Assembly (NCBI GenBank): GCA_017553785.1
Contig: JAFZKD010000114.1
Span: 1-33,390 of the forward strand
Direction: 5' to 3'
Source: Muribaculaceae bacterium
Lineage (GTDB): Bacteria > Bacteroidota > Bacteroidia > Bacteroidales > Muribaculaceae
DNA: 33,390 nt
A model generated the notes under the pieces. The model was not told the origin of the DNA. It did no database searches and was given only the letters and a program-made list of their open reading frames with translations. Positions 1 to 33,390 of the stretch are shown one piece after another; position 1 is the first letter of the stretch, and each line of letters starts with the position of its first letter. The translations under genes were made by a program, and so were the position numbers.

Positions 1-168
1 AACAACATCAAGCTCGCTAACGGCCGTGCCGCCAGCGTGAAGGATCTGCTCGTCAAGAAGTATGGTATCGCCGCCAACCGCATCAACGCCGCTGGCCAGG
101 GTATCAGCAACATGTTCGACGAATTGAGCTGGAACCGTGTTTCGATTTGCGAAATCATCGTGAAGTAA
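1..168 (+). CDS. C-terminal end of SusC-type receptor with OmpA-like tail (partial)
   Basis: Only the last 55 codons are inside the window; the gene begins upstream. The visible part is the second half of an OmpA-type peptidoglycan-binding domain: the LANGRAASVKDLLV helix with its conserved Arg, then RINAAGQGISN and a final beta strand ending EIIVK. It matches the end of the minus-strand SusC-OmpA fusion at the right edge of the window except for one residue (Ala here, Glu there). With a SusD gene 52 bases downstream, I infer that the missing upstream part is a SusC/RagA TonB-dependent barrel, so this is the first gene of a SusC-SusD-lipoprotein operon. What cannot be seen is the barrel itself; a free-standing OmpA protein is possible but less likely. 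Confidence 0.75.
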   Translation, partial: NNIKLANGRAASVKDLLVKKYGIAANRINAAGQGISNMFDELSWNRVSICEIIVK

Positions 169-220: not shown

Positions 221-1765
221 ATGAAAAAGATATTTAAATATTTGTTCATTGGAATGTTTGGTGTGCTCTGCCTGTCGTCTTGCTCCAACGATATGCTGGA
301 GACCGAGCCCACCGACTCCATGTCGGGATCGACCTTCATGAGCGACGCTACTAAGGCCCTCGTGCCCCTCAACGGTATCTACCGCTCGATGTACAGTGCC
401 GGTTGGTCCACTACCGGTAACACTCACCAGTGCTTCGGTATCAGTGCTTATAACCTGATGGCTGAGGTGATGGGTGATGACTTCATCATGGGTGCCCAGG
501 GTTCGGGCTGGTTCTGGTTCGACGCTGCCTACAATGTGAAGACCCGTTACACCGCCAGCTCTTGGCGCAGCTATGACTTGTGGATGGCCTACTACACCTG
601 GATTGCCAACGCTAACTATATCATCGCCGCCGAGGAGACCATGGCTGGTTCCAGCGAGGATGTTGGTTACGTGATGGGCCAGGCTTATGCTATCCGTGCC
701 TACAGCTATTTCATGCTGTCACAGATTTTTGCCCGCAACTACACATATCCTAACGATCCTTGTGTTCCCATCTACAACGAGCCCACCTCGACCACCACTA
801 CCGGTCAGCCCCGCTCTTCTGTAGCTGAGGTTTACGCTCAGATCGACAGCGACATTGCCAAGGCTGTTGAGTATCTGGCTAAATCGCCTGCTCAGCGTCA
901 TCCCAGCCACATCAGTTATGCTGTGGCTCTGGGTCTCAAGTCACGCATCGCTCTCGTTGAGGAGAAGTGGCAGGAGGCTTATGACGCAGCTGTTGCAGCT
1001 ATTGCTGCCAGTGGCAAGAAGATTACTCCCGTTGCTAACTTCATGGGCAACAACAGTGTTGACCAGGGTAACGTGATGTGGGGTGCACAGATTGTTAGCG
1101 ACCAGGCCGGTATGTATGCTTCGTTGATGGCTCACATGAGTGTTGACGTGGCTTACGGTCAGCGTGCTCCCAAGCAGATTTCCACTTGGCTCTATGACAA
1201 GATGAATTCTACCGACACCCGTCTGGCATGGTGGGATCCCAACGATGAGACCTATAGCACCGGCGGTTATATCCAGAAGAAGTTTGACTTCTCTAATCTC
1301 CAGACTTGGGAAGCCGACTACATCTGGATGCGTGTAGAAGAGATGTATCTCAATGCTGCCGAGGCTGCTTGTATGAAGGGTGACGAGGGCAATGCCAAGA
1401 AGTACTTGATGGACCTCATGGCAGTGCGTGATCCTGGTTACACCTGCAACAAGTCTGGTAAGGATCTTGCTCCTATCACCACCAACGAGACTGGTTCGCT
1501 GCGTGAGGAAATCCTGCTGCAGCGCCGCATCGAGCTGTGGGGCGAGGATGGCCGCATCTACACCATCCGTCGTTGCCACCAGGGCTTCGAGCGTCCTGCT
1601 GCCTATGGTTGGCCCAGCGGTCTGCTGATTCCGACCCATGCTGCTGCAGCCAAGGATCCCGCTAGTTACCTGTGGGTACTGACCATTCCTCAGGCCGAGT
1701 TTGACGGCAATGAGAACCTGGACTTCGATAGGGACCAGAACCCCATTGGCGACTATCCCGAGTAA
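221..1765 (+). CDS. SusD/RagB-family outer-membrane lipoprotein
   Basis: A 514-residue nutrient-capture lipoprotein, the lid partner of a SusC channel at the cell surface. The start gives a lipoprotein signal peptide (MKKIFKYLF, hydrophobic core, LSSC box with Cys21). After the Cys come the acidic SND residues often seen in surface-exported Bacteroidetes lipoproteins. The N-terminal segment (TEPTDSMSGSTFMSD, LNGIYRSMY) and the alpha-helical repeats (GQAYAIRAYSYFMLSQIF, IWMRVEEMYLNAAEAACMKG) are typical of SusD, as is the C-terminal part with LREEILLQRRIELWGEDGR and a closing PQAEFDGN region. Length is normal for the family. It lies directly after the SusC-type gene and before a small lipoprotein, so it is in one operon. 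The substrate cannot be told from sequence, and no glycoside hydrolase lies nearby. Confidence 0.93.
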   Translation: MKKIFKYLFIGMFGVLCLSSCSNDMLETEPTDSMSGSTFMSDATKALVPLNGIYRSMYSAGWSTTGNTHQCFGISAYNLMAEVMGDDFIMGAQGSGWFWFDAAYNVKTRYTASSWRSYDLWMAYYTWIANANYIIAAEETMAGSSEDVGYVMGQAYAIRAYSYFMLSQIFARNYTYPNDPCVPIYNEPTSTTTTGQPRSSVAEVYAQIDSDIAKAVEYLAKSPAQRHPSHISYAVALGLKSRIALVEEKWQEAYDAAVAAIAASGKKITPVANFMGNNSVDQGNVMWGAQIVSDQAGMYASLMAHMSVDVAYGQRAPKQISTWLYDKMNSTDTRLAWWDPNDETYSTGGYIQKKFDFSNLQTWEADYIWMRVEEMYLNAAEAACMKGDEGNAKKYLMDLMAVRDPGYTCNKSGKDLAPITTNETGSLREEILLQRRIELWGEDGRIYTIRRCHQGFERPAAYGWPSGLLIPTHAAAAKDPASYLWVLTIPQAEFDGNENLDFDRDQNPIGDYPE

Positions 1766-1799
1766 AAAATGTTGAATCACATTAAACTAATTGAATATT

Positions 1800-2615
1800 A
1801 TGAAATTAGGTAAATATATTTTAGGATTGGCACTCATCGCTGCTGGCCTGACCAGTTGCGACCAGGAAAATGAGGGCGCCATCTATGAACCCAAGGTGCA
1901 GAACATTTCGTTCATTACTGCTGAGCAGAGCACCTTGACCGATCAGACCGTGATTGAGATTCCCGTTGCTATCAGCCGCGCAATGACCAATGGCACTTAT
2001 ACTGCTAATGTGACCCTCTCGGACTATGATGAAGAGGTGAGCCTGAAGAGCAATCAGGTGACCTTTGCCGATGGCGAGGGTATTGCTTATGCTACTGTTG
2101 TAGTTTCCGGCATGAAGCAGGGTAATGAGTACAGTGGTACGTTGAACCTGTCGGATGCTGATAAGGCTACCGCCAATACCGAATTTGGTGAGCAGGTTAC
2201 TTCGGCAACTATTACGGTGATGTGTGACTACAACTGGGTACCGGCTGGTACCTGCACCTTCGTTGACTACACTTGGGAGGACGGCTATGTTGCCGAGAAC
2301 GTACCCATTGAGAATGGTGAGGGTTCCAACGTTTACCGCATCGTTTCGCCGCTGGCATATGTATATCCCGCTAGCTATGTTGACGGTCAGGGTGACACTG
2401 CCAACTGGCAGTTCTATCTGAACAATGATGGTACCATCACCTGTGATGAGGGTGCTTCGCTCAACTACTGGGGCTACTACATGTACTTCACCAGCGATTA
2501 TCCCAGCTACTGCTTCATCGAGCAGGACGGCAACACCTATGGTGTGAACTTCCTGCTGCTCTCGGGTAGCAGTCTGTACACTGGTGGTTACTTTGAGTTC
2601 ACCTGGAACAGGTAA
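1800..2615 (+). CDS. Small surface lipoprotein of the SusC/SusD operon
   Basis: A 271-residue lipoprotein. I prefer the ATG at 1800 to the in-frame TTG at 1791 because MKLGKYILGLALIAAGLTSC is a clean lipoprotein signal with Cys20, followed by DQENEG, an acidic surface-export-like stretch. Residues of about 35-145 form a beta-rich module with the pattern of Calx-beta-like domains (ADGEGIAYATVVVSG). The second half is rich in Tyr, Trp and Gly (NWQFYLNNDGTITCDEG, NYWGYYMYF) and looks like a second beta-sandwich. Its place 34 bases after susD is that of SusE/SusF-type binding lipoproteins, so a role in substrate binding at the surface is inferred from position. No enzyme motif is visible. A strong hairpin follows the stop. 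Confidence 0.8.
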   Translation: MKLGKYILGLALIAAGLTSCDQENEGAIYEPKVQNISFITAEQSTLTDQTVIEIPVAISRAMTNGTYTANVTLSDYDEEVSLKSNQVTFADGEGIAYATVVVSGMKQGNEYSGTLNLSDADKATANTEFGEQVTSATITVMCDYNWVPAGTCTFVDYTWEDGYVAENVPIENGEGSNVYRIVSPLAYVYPASYVDGQGDTANWQFYLNNDGTITCDEGASLNYWGYYMYFTSDYPSYCFIEQDGNTYGVNFLLLSGSSLYTGGYFEFTWNR

Positions 2616-29317: not shown

Positions 29318-30190
29318 TTACTCGATCACGAACTGATAGAGTGTGCAGCGGATGCTTTTGCTACCGCAGTTACCGGCAGCGATTTGGCGATAGGCACGTC
29401 CGATGTACCAGGTCCAGTAGTCGGTGAATTCGCCCATGCTACCGTTAGACTTGGTGTAGGGCAACATTCCTGTTACATTACCATTGTTGTCAACGGCAAA
29501 GAGACAAACCTCGCGGCGCTGATAACCTGAACTGTTGTAAACGGTCTTGCGGATCTTAACGGGGAACCACGATGTCACCTCGCCAAAACCAATGGGTTCA
29601 CCAACAGGCTCATACTCCTTGGTATCCAGGTTCTGGACACCATATTGTACCAAACCGGTGTAAGGGGTTCCATCAGCCTCGTAAAGCAGGTTGACGAACT
29701 GCACGCGGCACAGCGAATCGGTGTCGAGGGCGCGACCGAACTCAGGCGCTGATGACATCTCGATGGGAATCGGAGCCTTATCCAGGTCGTGCACATAGAG
29801 TACATAGCGTTTACCAGCCTCGACCGTCACGTTCTGGTCATAGACCACGGGATAGTTGTAACCACCGTTACCGTCGCTCTCGCGCTTGTGCAGCTTGAGG
29901 TTTAAGGTGCCGGCATCCACAGCATAGTATCGGTTAGTGCCGCCCGAGGGCACCGTGTTGAACGTTGCCAGGAAGGTAGCGCCGGCATTGCCGTACTCAA
30001 TGCCGTTGAGGTCGATGAAATACATGTAATTGGCTGCGCCGGCAGTCACGGGTGCATAGTAGCCCACTTGGACATAAGCCTTAGCGGACTCGTCAACAGG
30101 CTCAACCATGTAGGAAACATCCTTTTTGTCACAGGAGCTCATCGTGACAGCCACCAGCAGCAATAATGCTATATATTTGAAATATTTCAT
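29318..30190 (-). CDS. Surface lipoprotein of the right SusC/SusD operon (DUF4397-like)
   Basis: A 290-residue lipoprotein. I start at 30190 (MKYFKYIALLLLVAVTMSSC, lipid site Cys20) rather than the ATG six bases upstream; both are possible. DKKD follows the Cys, an acidic/basic surface-export-like stretch. Residues of about 40-140 (AYVQVGYYAPV, LNLKLHKRESDGNGG, QNVTVEAGKRYVLYVHDLD) have the beta-strand order of DUF4397 domains, which occur in cell-surface lipoproteins. The second half (VQFVNLLYEADGTPYTGLVQ, VTSWFPVKIRKTV) is probably another beta-sandwich. As the third gene after SusC and SusD, 30 bases from SusD, it likely binds substrate or stabilises the complex; this is inferred from position. 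Confidence 0.78.
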   Translation of the reverse strand: MKYFKYIALLLLVAVTMSSCDKKDVSYMVEPVDESAKAYVQVGYYAPVTAGAANYMYFIDLNGIEYGNAGATFLATFNTVPSGGTNRYYAVDAGTLNLKLHKRESDGNGGYNYPVVYDQNVTVEAGKRYVLYVHDLDKAPIPIEMSSAPEFGRALDTDSLCRVQFVNLLYEADGTPYTGLVQYGVQNLDTKEYEPVGEPIGFGEVTSWFPVKIRKTVYNSSGYQRREVCLFAVDNNGNVTGMLPYTKSNGSMGEFTDYWTWYIGRAYRQIAAGNCGSKSIRCTLYQFVIE

Positions 30191-30220
30191 AATCATTTAA
30201 TTTTTACGACATTAATAATT

Positions 30221-32101
30221 TCATTGAGGCATGTCACCAGGATAGCAGAACCACATGATGGAGCACTGATAATCGTTAGCCAGACCCGAGATGGGTTTGA
30301 GGGCATCAAGATTATTCTTGTTCCACATGTACTCGGAGTTGTAGCGCGGACGGATGCGGAAGCAAGGCGAACCGTTGTTGTCCTCGTTGAATGCGCTCTT
30401 GCGGCCCTGTACCTGAGCGGGCTGCAGCCAGAATCCCTTGTAAACCTTGTTGGGATCGGTATCCAACTTCTGGGTAATGGTGGTCTTGTCCCAACCATTG
30501 CCGTACTTGGGATACTCGCCCGTATACTCAATGTCATAGAAGTACTTGCGAAGGTCCACCCAAGTCTCGATGGCACCCCAAGGATACATGGCGAGGTACT
30601 TCTGCATCATGATGTGCGAGAGTGAGAAGTCACTCATGGGAAGACCAGCCACGTAGGGACCGTTCAGGTATTCCTGAGCGAGTTCGTTGAAGGTGGCCTT
30701 GGTCACCTTGTCGCCCTGGTGGTAGGTACCGTCGGTGGTACCGGGTACGATGTAGCTGGCGGTGAACTCCATATCGGCAGTCAGCGCCTTCTTCCATGTC
30801 TCAAAGGCCTCGCTCTTGCTGCCATACTTGAACTGTACCTCGGCGAGGTCGAACAGCAGCTCGGCGTAGGTGGCCATGATGTAGGGAGCATCGTTGTGGT
30901 AGATCCAGCGTCCAGCACCGTCATAGGTGGTGTTGGAAACGGCATTGCGGCCCCAGAACGAGGGAGCGGTGGCAATGGGACCACCAGCACCAGTGAAGCC
31001 TGATCCAGCGTAGTAGAGACTGCGGAGCACCTCACGGTCGGCGATAGTTGCTAGGTTGTTGCTGTCGGTAGTCGCCAGCTTCACGAGACGGCGCGGATCG
31101 AAGTGACCCATGTCGGGCAGCGTGTCGCTGGTAATTTGCTTGTCAAGCAACTGGTAGGGATAGTGCTTCTTGTTGATCTCAACCGTGTCCTCGGTCTGGA
31201 TGTAGTTACCCTGCTCGTCATATTTGCGGATGGTACCCGTGAACAGTTGCACGGCATAGTCATGCTGCCAGTAGCTGTTGGTCAGGTTGCCGCGATAGGT
31301 ACCCCAGAAGTTGTTGTAGCCGCTCTCGGCAGCATCGGCGCCACCACCGGCGATCTTCAGGGTCGCATTGTCAGCATTGCTGGCAAATGCGTTGTTGACA
31401 GCGGTCAGGAACTCATTGTAGTATTTGTCCTTGAAGTCATTCTTGTTGGTCAAGGAGGCCAGGTTGCGGGCGATTACGGCATAGGCGAACTTGATCCACT
31501 TGTCCTTGTCGCCGCCATACATGTAATCGTTGTTCTTGATGCGGTTGCCATAGGCAGAGTTGTCCTCCTTCTGCAGGTACTCGATAGCCTGATAAGCCCA
31601 TTCACGAACCTGGGTATAGATATCATACTGGTAGTCATACTCATGCGAGAGCAAACCAGGCACATATGCCTGCTTCATGGGAGCTTCACCGTTGACCTTG
31701 GTGAGCAGGTCCCAAGAGAAGGCCTTCATGGCCAAGCCGATACCGGCCAAAGTCCAGTTCTCGGCATCTTCACTCTGTTTGATCATGTTCTCCAGGTTCA
31801 TACCCTGGTTCCAGTAAACCATACGCCAAGCCTCACCACCGGCATCGCTGCCCTTGCTGTAGAAGTGGTTGGCAAAGGTGGTGTAGCTAGAGGTTCCCAT
31901 CATCTGGGTAAGCGGTGCGATAGCACGCAAGTCCCAGTAGATGCCCTGATAGGCCTGTTGGATGCCCGCCAGGTAGAGGTAACCCTCCACGTAGTCGGGT
32001 GCGTCGGTGTTCTTGTTCACATCCAGGTAGTCGTCACAGGATGTTAGCCCCAACGTCACGCAAGCCAGCGCACACAGTATAATTGATTTGAAAAGTTTCA
32101 T
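30221..32101 (-). CDS. SusD/RagB-family lipoprotein, SusD-like_2 type
   Basis: A 626-residue nutrient-binding lipoprotein. The ATG at 32101 gives MKLFKSIILCALACVTLGLTSC with lipid site Cys22; the frame opens nine codons upstream but without a signal-like start. The mature start, DDYLDVNKNTDAPDYV, is the signature of the SusD-like_2 branch (PF12771), which differs from the classic SusD of the left operon. Helical repeats follow: ENWTLAGIGLAMKAFSWDLLTKVNGEAPM, IYTQVREWAYQAIEYLQKED, KWIKFAYAVIARNLASL, YIMATYAELLFDLAEVQFKYG, and the end YNSEYMWNKNNLDAL. It is somewhat longer than the usual 500-550 residues. It lies 33 bases after the SusC-OmpA gene, so they share an operon. Confidence 0.93.
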   Translation of the reverse strand: MKLFKSIILCALACVTLGLTSCDDYLDVNKNTDAPDYVEGYLYLAGIQQAYQGIYWDLRAIAPLTQMMGTSSYTTFANHFYSKGSDAGGEAWRMVYWNQGMNLENMIKQSEDAENWTLAGIGLAMKAFSWDLLTKVNGEAPMKQAYVPGLLSHEYDYQYDIYTQVREWAYQAIEYLQKEDNSAYGNRIKNNDYMYGGDKDKWIKFAYAVIARNLASLTNKNDFKDKYYNEFLTAVNNAFASNADNATLKIAGGGADAAESGYNNFWGTYRGNLTNSYWQHDYAVQLFTGTIRKYDEQGNYIQTEDTVEINKKHYPYQLLDKQITSDTLPDMGHFDPRRLVKLATTDSNNLATIADREVLRSLYYAGSGFTGAGGPIATAPSFWGRNAVSNTTYDGAGRWIYHNDAPYIMATYAELLFDLAEVQFKYGSKSEAFETWKKALTADMEFTASYIVPGTTDGTYHQGDKVTKATFNELAQEYLNGPYVAGLPMSDFSLSHIMMQKYLAMYPWGAIETWVDLRKYFYDIEYTGEYPKYGNGWDKTTITQKLDTDPNKVYKGFWLQPAQVQGRKSAFNEDNNGSPCFRIRPRYNSEYMWNKNNLDALKPISGLANDYQCSIMWFCYPGDMPQ

Positions 32102-32134
32102 AATTATATCTGTTTTATTTGAGTTCATTAATAA

Positions 32135-33390
32135 TTACTTCACGATGATTTCGCAAATTGAAACACGGTTCCAACTCAACTCGTCAAACATGTTGCTGAT
32201 ACCTTGGCCTTCAGCGTTGATGCGGTTGGCAGCGATACCATATTTCTTAACGAGCAAATCCTTCACGCTGGCGGCACGGCCGTTAGCGAGCTTGATGTTG
32301 TTCTCCTGATTGCCCTCGGGAGAAGCATAACCCTTGATGGTGCAGGTTGCATTCGGGTGGCTCTTCAGGTAAGTGGCAACACGCTCAACATTAGGCTGCT
32401 GGTCAGAGCCAACGGAGGTTTTGTTCACGGGGAAGTGAACAAGCACGTTCATGTACTGCTTGCTGTTGTCAATTACCGTGGGAGCGGGAGCAGGAGCGTT
32501 CTTTGCGGCGTTCAGGTCATTGCGGCAGTTGGCCAGAGCGCGGTTAGCGGCGTCAAGGTCATTCTGCATCTGGGCCAGACGGCCGTTGAAGTTGTTCTCG
32601 GTGTCAGTGAGCTGAGCACGCAGGGCATTGATCTGGTCATTGAGCACGTTGGTGTTATTGTAAACGGGCTTGGGAGCCTCGTCGTTAGAACCGAAGGTCA
32701 CGCTCAGACCAACAGAATAGGTGCGGGGACTGGGCAACGACCAGCAGTCGTAACCCTCACCACCAGTACCGCCGGCAGCTGCCGACATGGTGTTCCCGGC
32801 AACATCGGTTCCTGTGTAGTTAGTGATGGTGAACAAGTCGTTACCTGCAACGTAGATGCTACCGTTCTGGATGGTACCACGGGTAACGCTATTCAGCCAG
32901 TTGTGCGGGATAATGTAAGCCAAACGCAGTTCCTGGCAACGGATGTAGTTGATCTTGTGCTGGATCCAGTCCTCATCACCACCAGTGTAGGTATATGAAC
33001 CATACTCGCCCAAGTTGACTGCGATAGTGTTCTTGGTGGGATTGTCAGTCTCCTGCTTGCCGTCGTACAGCACGCCGTCGAATACCACGAAGCCCTGTTC
33101 ACGCATGTCAACAGACAGCCAGTTCAGACCGGTGCCCAACATGTCACGCATGGTAGCGTTGACAACGTCGGCGTGGTAACGGCCCTGGAACATGGCGCTC
33201 AGGCGCCAGTTCTTCACACTCAAGGCAGTGGTGAAACCGAAGCGCAGCTTGGGCTCACGGTTACCCAGGATGCTCCACTCGCTGGAGGTGCGGGGCAGAC
33301 CGGTGGTCGGGTCGATCAGGATCTGGCCCTTGGAGTTGCGCTCATAGGCACGGCCGGTTACGGTGCTGATGGGATGTCCCTTCATCACAC
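32135..33390 (-). CDS. SusC-type TonB-dependent receptor fused to OmpA domain (5' end outside window)
   Basis: The last 418 codons of a gene that continues past the right edge. Numbering from the edge, residues 1-232 are the end of a SusC/RagA barrel: GNREPKLRFGFTTALSVKNW, LAYIIPHNWL, SIYVAGNDLFTITNYTGTD, and LPSPRTYSVGLSVTF, the usual last strand. Normally the protein stops there. Here it continues: residues 245-297 form a heptad-like coiled coil (LNDQINALRAQLTDTENNF, MQNDLDAANRALANCRNDL), then a Pro/Ala hinge, then an OmpA-type domain at 311-417 (YMNVLVHFPVNKTSV, IKGYASPEGNQENN, LANGRAASVKDLLV, RINAEGQGISN). The transporter would thus be tied to peptidoglycan. The OmpA-site Asp of the classic TD motif is replaced (ASPEG), while the conserved Arg remains. 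Confidence 0.9.
   Translation of the reverse strand, partial: VMKGHPISTVTGRAYERNSKGQILIDPTTGLPRTSSEWSILGNREPKLRFGFTTALSVKNWRLSAMFQGRYHADVVNATMRDMLGTGLNWLSVDMREQGFVVFDGVLYDGKQETDNPTKNTIAVNLGEYGSYTYTGGDEDWIQHKINYIRCQELRLAYIIPHNWLNSVTRGTIQNGSIYVAGNDLFTITNYTGTDVAGNTMSAAAGGTGGEGYDCWSLPSPRTYSVGLSVTFGSNDEAPKPVYNNTNVLNDQINALRAQLTDTENNFNGRLAQMQNDLDAANRALANCRNDLNAAKNAPAPAPTVIDNSKQYMNVLVHFPVNKTSVGSDQQPNVERVATYLKSHPNATCTIKGYASPEGNQENNIKLANGRAASVKDLLVKKYGIAANRINAEGQGISNMFDELSWNRVSICEIIVK

Follow-up and report, generated by a model that had tools for sequence, protein, structure and literature searches.

The closest described relatives of the locus reported here are the SusC/RagA TonB-dependent transporters (TIGR04056), which have the same CarboxypepD_reg-like domain, plug and barrel and the same adjoining SusD gene; the unfused orthologues that were read stop at the last barrel strand, whereas the fusions described below run about 184 residues further. 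A second relative is an OmpA/OprF-type stand-alone protein of 417 amino acids (G000 C101:19498-20751), which shares a coiled coil and an OmpA domain with the fusions, whereas its first approximately 250 residues are a different and far smaller N-terminal part that is not a TonB-dependent transporter and appears to be an outer-membrane barrel, with no match to a Pfam barrel model. PG1058 (PorE) belongs to the type IX secretion system; it is also from Bacteroidota, has an OmpA_C-like end and is required by an outer-membrane machine, but it is a predicted lipoprotein with TPR, beta-propeller and carboxypeptidase-regulatory domains and is without a transporter barrel. In Neisseria, RmpM is likewise an OmpA-type peptidoglycan-binding protein complexed with TonB-dependent transporters (TbpA, LbpA and FrpB). 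One published account records such complexes and states that mutation of RmpM lowers growth on lactoferrin iron (PMC8497027). RmpM may hold the Neisseria transporters in place in trans, as a separate polypeptide of an unrelated lineage whose partners are not SusC, whereas the fusions consist of one frame. In the literature searched, which was mostly that accessible without subscription, no report of a SusC–OmpA fusion was found; the component parts are known, and their combination and its spread across SusC families constitute the new element.

Architecture of the fused frame

The window, that is, the whole stretch of DNA that was analysed (33,390 nucleotides), is the entire contig C122 of a 122-contig, 2.54-Mb assembly that is 80% complete and 5% contaminated. 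Its final 1254 bases (33388-32135, minus strand) form a single open frame of 417 amino acids without an internal stop, in which the end of a SusC barrel, a coiled coil and an OmpA-type domain follow one another in that order (Table 1). The NCBIfam profile TIGR04056 matched residues 33-232 over profile positions 808-981 of 981 and thus reached the profile end, with a score of 85.7 bits that lies below the cut-off of 368 bits, as expected for a 417-residue fragment; the barrel preceding the OmpA domain is that of SusC and not the small barrel of OmpA/OprF porins. The Pfam OmpA family (PF00691) matched with 46.8 bits against a gathering cut-off of 27.2. The heptad-core score of the coiled coil was equalled by 2 of 2000 shuffles, and the linker was found in all ten rows of one homologue alignment. 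The earlier note, made from the letters alone, had read this stretch as one uninterrupted frame leading from the terminal SusC strand through about 50 residues of coiled coil and a Pro/Ala hinge into an OmpA domain; the frame, the coil (49 residues) and the domain were all recovered, and the hinge is present in the window but is not common to most homologues. Its statement that ordinary SusC proteins end at the terminal strand agrees with all 37 distinct unfused genes read from families A to D, which stop at Phe, Leu or Ile there.

Table 1. Positions of the two SusC–OmpA fusions and their neighbouring genes in the window
Feature	Position	Strand	Evidence or remark
Last 55 codons and stop of second SusC–OmpA fusion	1..168	+	remainder cut by contig start
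SusD partner of second fusion	221..1765	+	PF14322, PF07980
Small putative lipoprotein after second SusD	1791..2615	+	no Pfam family at E 0.01
Small putative lipoprotein, next after SusD-like partner	29318..30196	-	weak DUF4397 match, 21.1 bits (cut-off 30.6)
Partner SusD-like lipoprotein	30221..32128	-	PF12771
OmpA-type domain	32138..32455	-	PF00691, residues 319-399
Arg371, kept	32276-32278	-	
Ser356 in motif GYASPEG, canonical Asp position	32321-32323	-	
Pro/Ala stretch APAPAPT	32477..32497	-	absent from most homologues
Coiled-coil linker, 49 residues (residues 249-297 of 417-aa frame P0001)	32498..32644	-	heptad-core score
SusC/RagA TonB-dependent barrel, 3′ part, family A, end ...LPSPRTYSVGLSVTF	32690..33388	-	open at contig end

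The frame runs off the contig end, so that the 5′ portion of this gene, which belongs to the family of fusions termed A, is absent; no such portion was found in the remainder of the same genome assembly, and the partial SusC genes on contigs C80 and C15 were ruled out as the missing half, since their identity to the fusion families is no more than 31-42%. Across its 417 residues the frame is 85-90% identical to family-A fusions from other genomes, in which whole frames are mostly 1233-1302 amino acids long. The listed start of the SusD-like partner lies 6 bp beyond the stop codon of the fusion. The 55 residues of a second tail, encoded at the opposite end of the contig, are 98% identical in protein to the family-A tail, and the two tails form an inverted repeat of 169 nucleotides at 93%. 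The second fusion was judged by gene order to belong to family D, the genes downstream of it being arranged as they are after the family-D fusions of loci L083, L084 and L085.

Distribution within and beyond the genus

Whole fusions were recovered from public assemblies: of 103 confirmed stretches the best 80 were kept, and these gave 74 named loci, in which 68 of 75 frames exceed 1100 amino acids. Full-length fusions comprise about 1210-1360 amino acids, the extension past the last barrel strand accounting for about 184 residues of this length. They come from uncultured bacteria assigned to Prevotellaceae, Muribaculaceae, Porphyromonadaceae or Bacteroidales. The group is one of gut Bacteroidales, and part of it was sampled from ruminants, among them goat, sheep, water buffalo and roe deer. 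The CarboxypepD_reg-like domain (PF13715), the plug (PF07715) and the OmpA domain were present in all four full-length fusions scanned, and the Pfam barrel model was matched by three of them, the one without a match belonging to family D. In some fused copies the reading frame is either cut by a stop codon or divided in two (G071:C68:13355-14482, G056:C16, G054:C58 and G059:C105).

Within the genus, identity to the MnmG protein of the window separates 39 genomes at 84-100% from the other matches, which reach at most 79% (full-length ones at most 76%); seven genus genomes gave no MnmG match. At least 38 of the 101 genus genomes carry fusions, and these are 38 of the 39 genomes of the MnmG-defined clade, the exception being G031 (57% complete), for which there was no fusion among the matches listed. 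None was present among the matches listed for the other 62 genomes. In an MnmG tree obtained by a quick search with 41 rows, out of 101 genomes, the 17 tail genomes formed one side of a branch with an SH-aLRT value of 100. One of these 62, G073, is 94% complete and has a stand-alone OmpA protein like that of the tail clade, and neither MnmG nor any SusC of families A to D, fused or unfused, was found in it; a missing region may explain these gaps, since MnmG and the A to D genes lie close together in G016, or the genes may truly have been lost.

SusC families that bear the tail number at least five (A, B, C1, C2 and D); this spread, like the origin of the tail, went beyond what the earlier note had noticed. 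When barrels of different families (A, B, C1 and C2 pooled, and D) are compared within one genome, they are 21-34% identical, and the corresponding tails are 63-86% identical. A stretch of about 41 kb in G016 holds fusions of A, B, C and D as well as MnmG. Sister genomes without the tail carry unfused orthologues of the fused SusC genes: families A, B and D had tail-less members in at least 17, 29 and 11 genomes, respectively, and C1 and C2 taken together in at least 41, the unfused state being called from the end of the match and the frame length, with most frames that are cut short excluded from these counts. Among the matches listed, the only unfused member of families A to D in the tail clade is that of G018, a divergent B-like SusC (L241, G018:C38:47000-51000) that is 51% identical to fused B. 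Tail genomes also hold other SusC families without the tail, for example one that is 37-39% identical to D and has frames of 1043-1092 amino acids. In the genome of the window, the OmpA matches miss the other SusC genes, one of which was read to its end and does not continue past the barrel.

Beyond the genus, searches with the tail profile across the family, order and phylum placed this tail on no transporter of another lineage among the matches listed, although fusions that are weaker or fragmentary may have escaped them. The family search matched 282 of 297 genomes (30 genera); among the matches listed, all down to E = 5.6e-76 lie within the genus, and from 6.6e-72 on the listed frames, of 168-449 amino acids, are stand-alone proteins or fragments. 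In the order (295 genomes), the listed frames outside the genus measure at most 813 amino acids, too short for a whole SusC, apart from two of 1299 and 2217 amino acids that proved to be VWA/WD40-like–OmpA and SprB–OmpA proteins. L165:762-4592 (1276 amino acids, VWA and WD40-like) and L166:293-6907 (2204 amino acids, SprB repeats) end in an OmpA domain with the usual Asp. The longest listed frame in the phylum (392 genomes) has 602 amino acids.

Probable origin and exchange of the tail

In a tree of 43 tail and OmpA rows, from which G078_C2 was excluded because the cutting pattern did not fit its linker, all 34 fused tails formed one group (97/93), and these 34 together with the five stand-alone OmpA proteins of the clade were separated from the four belonging to other genus members (100/99). 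The nearest relative of the tail is the clade's own stand-alone OmpA protein, represented here by that of contig C101 described above, which has the same coiled coil and OmpA domain at 59% identity, a placement that assumes the root of the tree to lie among the stand-alone proteins. A tree of the barrels was built from 70 of 73 closed candidates, three of less than 1000 amino acids being excluded and two frames open at the 3′ end having been excluded earlier; among its rows, G000 C48 bears the label D without being an orthologue (30% identical), and long branches were flagged by the program. The best barrel tree requires eight changes of the fused state, four of them in B, where some forks are weak, and one in each of the other four families. 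Since eight changes are needed on the barrel tree and yet all 34 tails form one group nearest the OmpA of the clade, the tail was probably acquired in a single event, with the C-terminal part of the clade's stand-alone OmpA as its probable source, and afterwards copied across SusC genes, several of which are neighbours. That the tail is instead ancestral and was lost from all other lineages is spoken against by its closeness to the clade's own OmpA, given the assumed root, and this reading requires loss from every family in the tail-less lineages.

Common descent of tail and barrel was rejected for family B, in which the unfused genes of G032 and G063 group with the fused genes of G016, G028 and G046, and the fused gene of G051 groups with the unfused genes of G026 and G086, each grouping having an SH-aLRT value of 100. 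Family-B barrels from genomes with and without the tail interleave on the tree (L232 and L233 versus L071, L073 and L090), and this pattern suggests that family-B SusC genes have been exchanged horizontally between the two groups. The tails themselves cut across the SusC families, with one B tail among those of C, one C tail with those of A, B and D, and the D tails mixed with those of B. At fourfold sites, A and B tails are more alike within the same genome than between genomes (0.75 vs 0.65, from 5 and 40 pairs), and the other five family pairs have no such within-genome excess. The signal peptides of the SusD proteins beside A, B and C fusions are near-identical, and the SusD proteins differ (L071, L073, L090 and window 32128); the tail, the spacer and the start of SusD may recombine as a single block. 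A more far-reaching reading, which we put forward tentatively, is that in this gut clade the tail is a transferable wall-anchor module of a core set of SusCD importers, captured once from the OmpA of the cell itself, pasted on at least five SusC families and still being swapped, so that barrels of unlike ancestry would become tethered and these importers would be fixed, wall-anchored stations instead of complexes that drift.

Possible peptidoglycan binding and role of the tail

The OmpA-type domain was aligned to that of Acinetobacter baumannii OmpA (PDB 3td3), in which D271 and R286 are reported to hold diaminopimelic acid and Asp271 is one of two residues termed absolutely conserved in the domain (PMC6572160). 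The position of the Asp is occupied by Ser in 22 of 22 rows of one alignment, 12 of them stand-alone proteins, and in 43 of 43 rows of another that overlaps with it, and the Arg equivalent to R286 is invariant in the 22 rows. The surrounding motif is GYAS[PKQ][ED]G, with the Tyr at times replaced by Phe, and every row has an acid, E or D, two residues past the Ser that could take over from the Asp. Because stand-alone proteins of other genera share this motif, the change from Asp to Ser predates the fusion. An OmpA subfamily with Ser in place of the diaminopimelate-binding Asp thus occurs across several genera, and a different OmpA protein of the same genome (L001) retains the usual motif with both Asp and Arg. 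Judged from these residues, binding of peptidoglycan by the tail is possible but unproven. A Cys before the GYAS motif (C349, window 32342-32344) is found in 34 of 34 fused tails, in none of the five stand-alone OmpA proteins of the clade and in two of the four of other genus members; a second Cys lies near the C-terminus (C412, window 32153-32155), and a disulfide between the two is possible.

The reading that we favour, with moderate confidence, is that of a SusCD importer whose SusC would bear a periplasmic peptidoglycan tether and would be held in place against the pull of TonB; such wall anchoring of a nutrient pump, which the earlier note had proposed, is plausible. The last strand of the barrel would still be read by BAM as in OmpA, leaving the tail in the periplasm, and this topology is feasible because in OmpA, too, the last barrel strand is followed by a periplasmic domain. 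The coiled coil would then bridge the gap between the outer membrane and the peptidoglycan, a helix of 49 residues being about 7 nm long by helix rise, roughly the distance from outer membrane to wall, and the OmpA domain would hold the importer to the wall and in place against TonB, as a cis counterpart of RmpM. In Bacteroides thetaiotaomicron, one study describes a porin F orthologue with a peptidoglycan-binding domain as retained in the outer membrane and not in vesicles, and an ordinary TonB-dependent receptor as likewise kept out of vesicles (PMC6222051); the observation is neutral for a tether because the ordinary receptor is also kept out. The replacement of Asp by Ser, the tail-less orthologues in sister genomes and the other SusC families that lack the tail within tail genomes count against a tether.

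That same replacement, found in all 43 rows, is what would be expected if the tail had lost peptidoglycan binding and had become a protein-interaction module that pairs importers with one another or with the stand-alone OmpA of the clade. Consistent with this reading are the coil and domain that the tail has in common with the stand-alone protein and the Cys that all 34 fused tails have and the five clade proteins lack at the same place, but the Arg is invariant in 22 rows, the acid two residues past the Ser could replace the Asp, and PF00691 scores well above its cut-off, and we regard the reading as doubtful. It is also unlikely that the envelope is the beneficiary, with abundant SusC proteins adding to the OmpA-like staples that join the outer membrane to the wall and with transport unchanged. 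Several importers per genome do share the tail whatever their barrel, as expected if the cargo were irrelevant; however, the matches listed for many tail genomes still include a stand-alone OmpA gene with the same domain, and the tail is not on every SusC, given the ordinary frame lengths of other SusC families in the tail genomes and, in the genome of the window, the SusC genes that the OmpA matches miss, including the one read to its barrel end.

The tail is under purifying selection, with a dN/dS of 0.16-0.23 in all four groups tested, and it has an invariant core. These findings, together with the open frames of most listed copies and the five family pairs without a within-genome excess at fourfold sites, make it very improbable that the tail is a neutral hitch-hiker, a functionless 3′ segment homogenised by recombination among neighbouring SusC–SusD loci, even though the tails cross SusC families, those of A and B are more alike within a genome, near-identical SusD signal peptides lie beside A, B and C tails, and a few fused copies are interrupted. 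There is a negligible chance that the fusion arose from a frameshift, from contigs wrongly joined or from two genes mis-assembled. Both ends of this contig do fall within a fusion gene, and at one of them the break lies in the repeated tail. The two grounds for doubt named in the earlier note, a join and the absence of homologues, were nevertheless not borne out: fusions are present in at least 38 of 101 genus genomes, and the 74 named loci that carry them stem from many assemblies made separately. The fusion itself is safe in this respect, and individual tail swaps between families could be mis-joins.

If the favoured reading of a wall-tethered SusCD importer holds, the fusions bear on two open questions, how TonB pulls on a transporter without dragging it along and where an importer is positioned relative to the wall. 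Sister bacteria within a single genus have importers of these families either with the tether built in or without it, a natural comparison by which the part that wall anchoring plays in TonB-dependent uptake would become directly testable. The fusions also present a case in which a protein tail moves between paralogous transporters while the barrels stay divergent.
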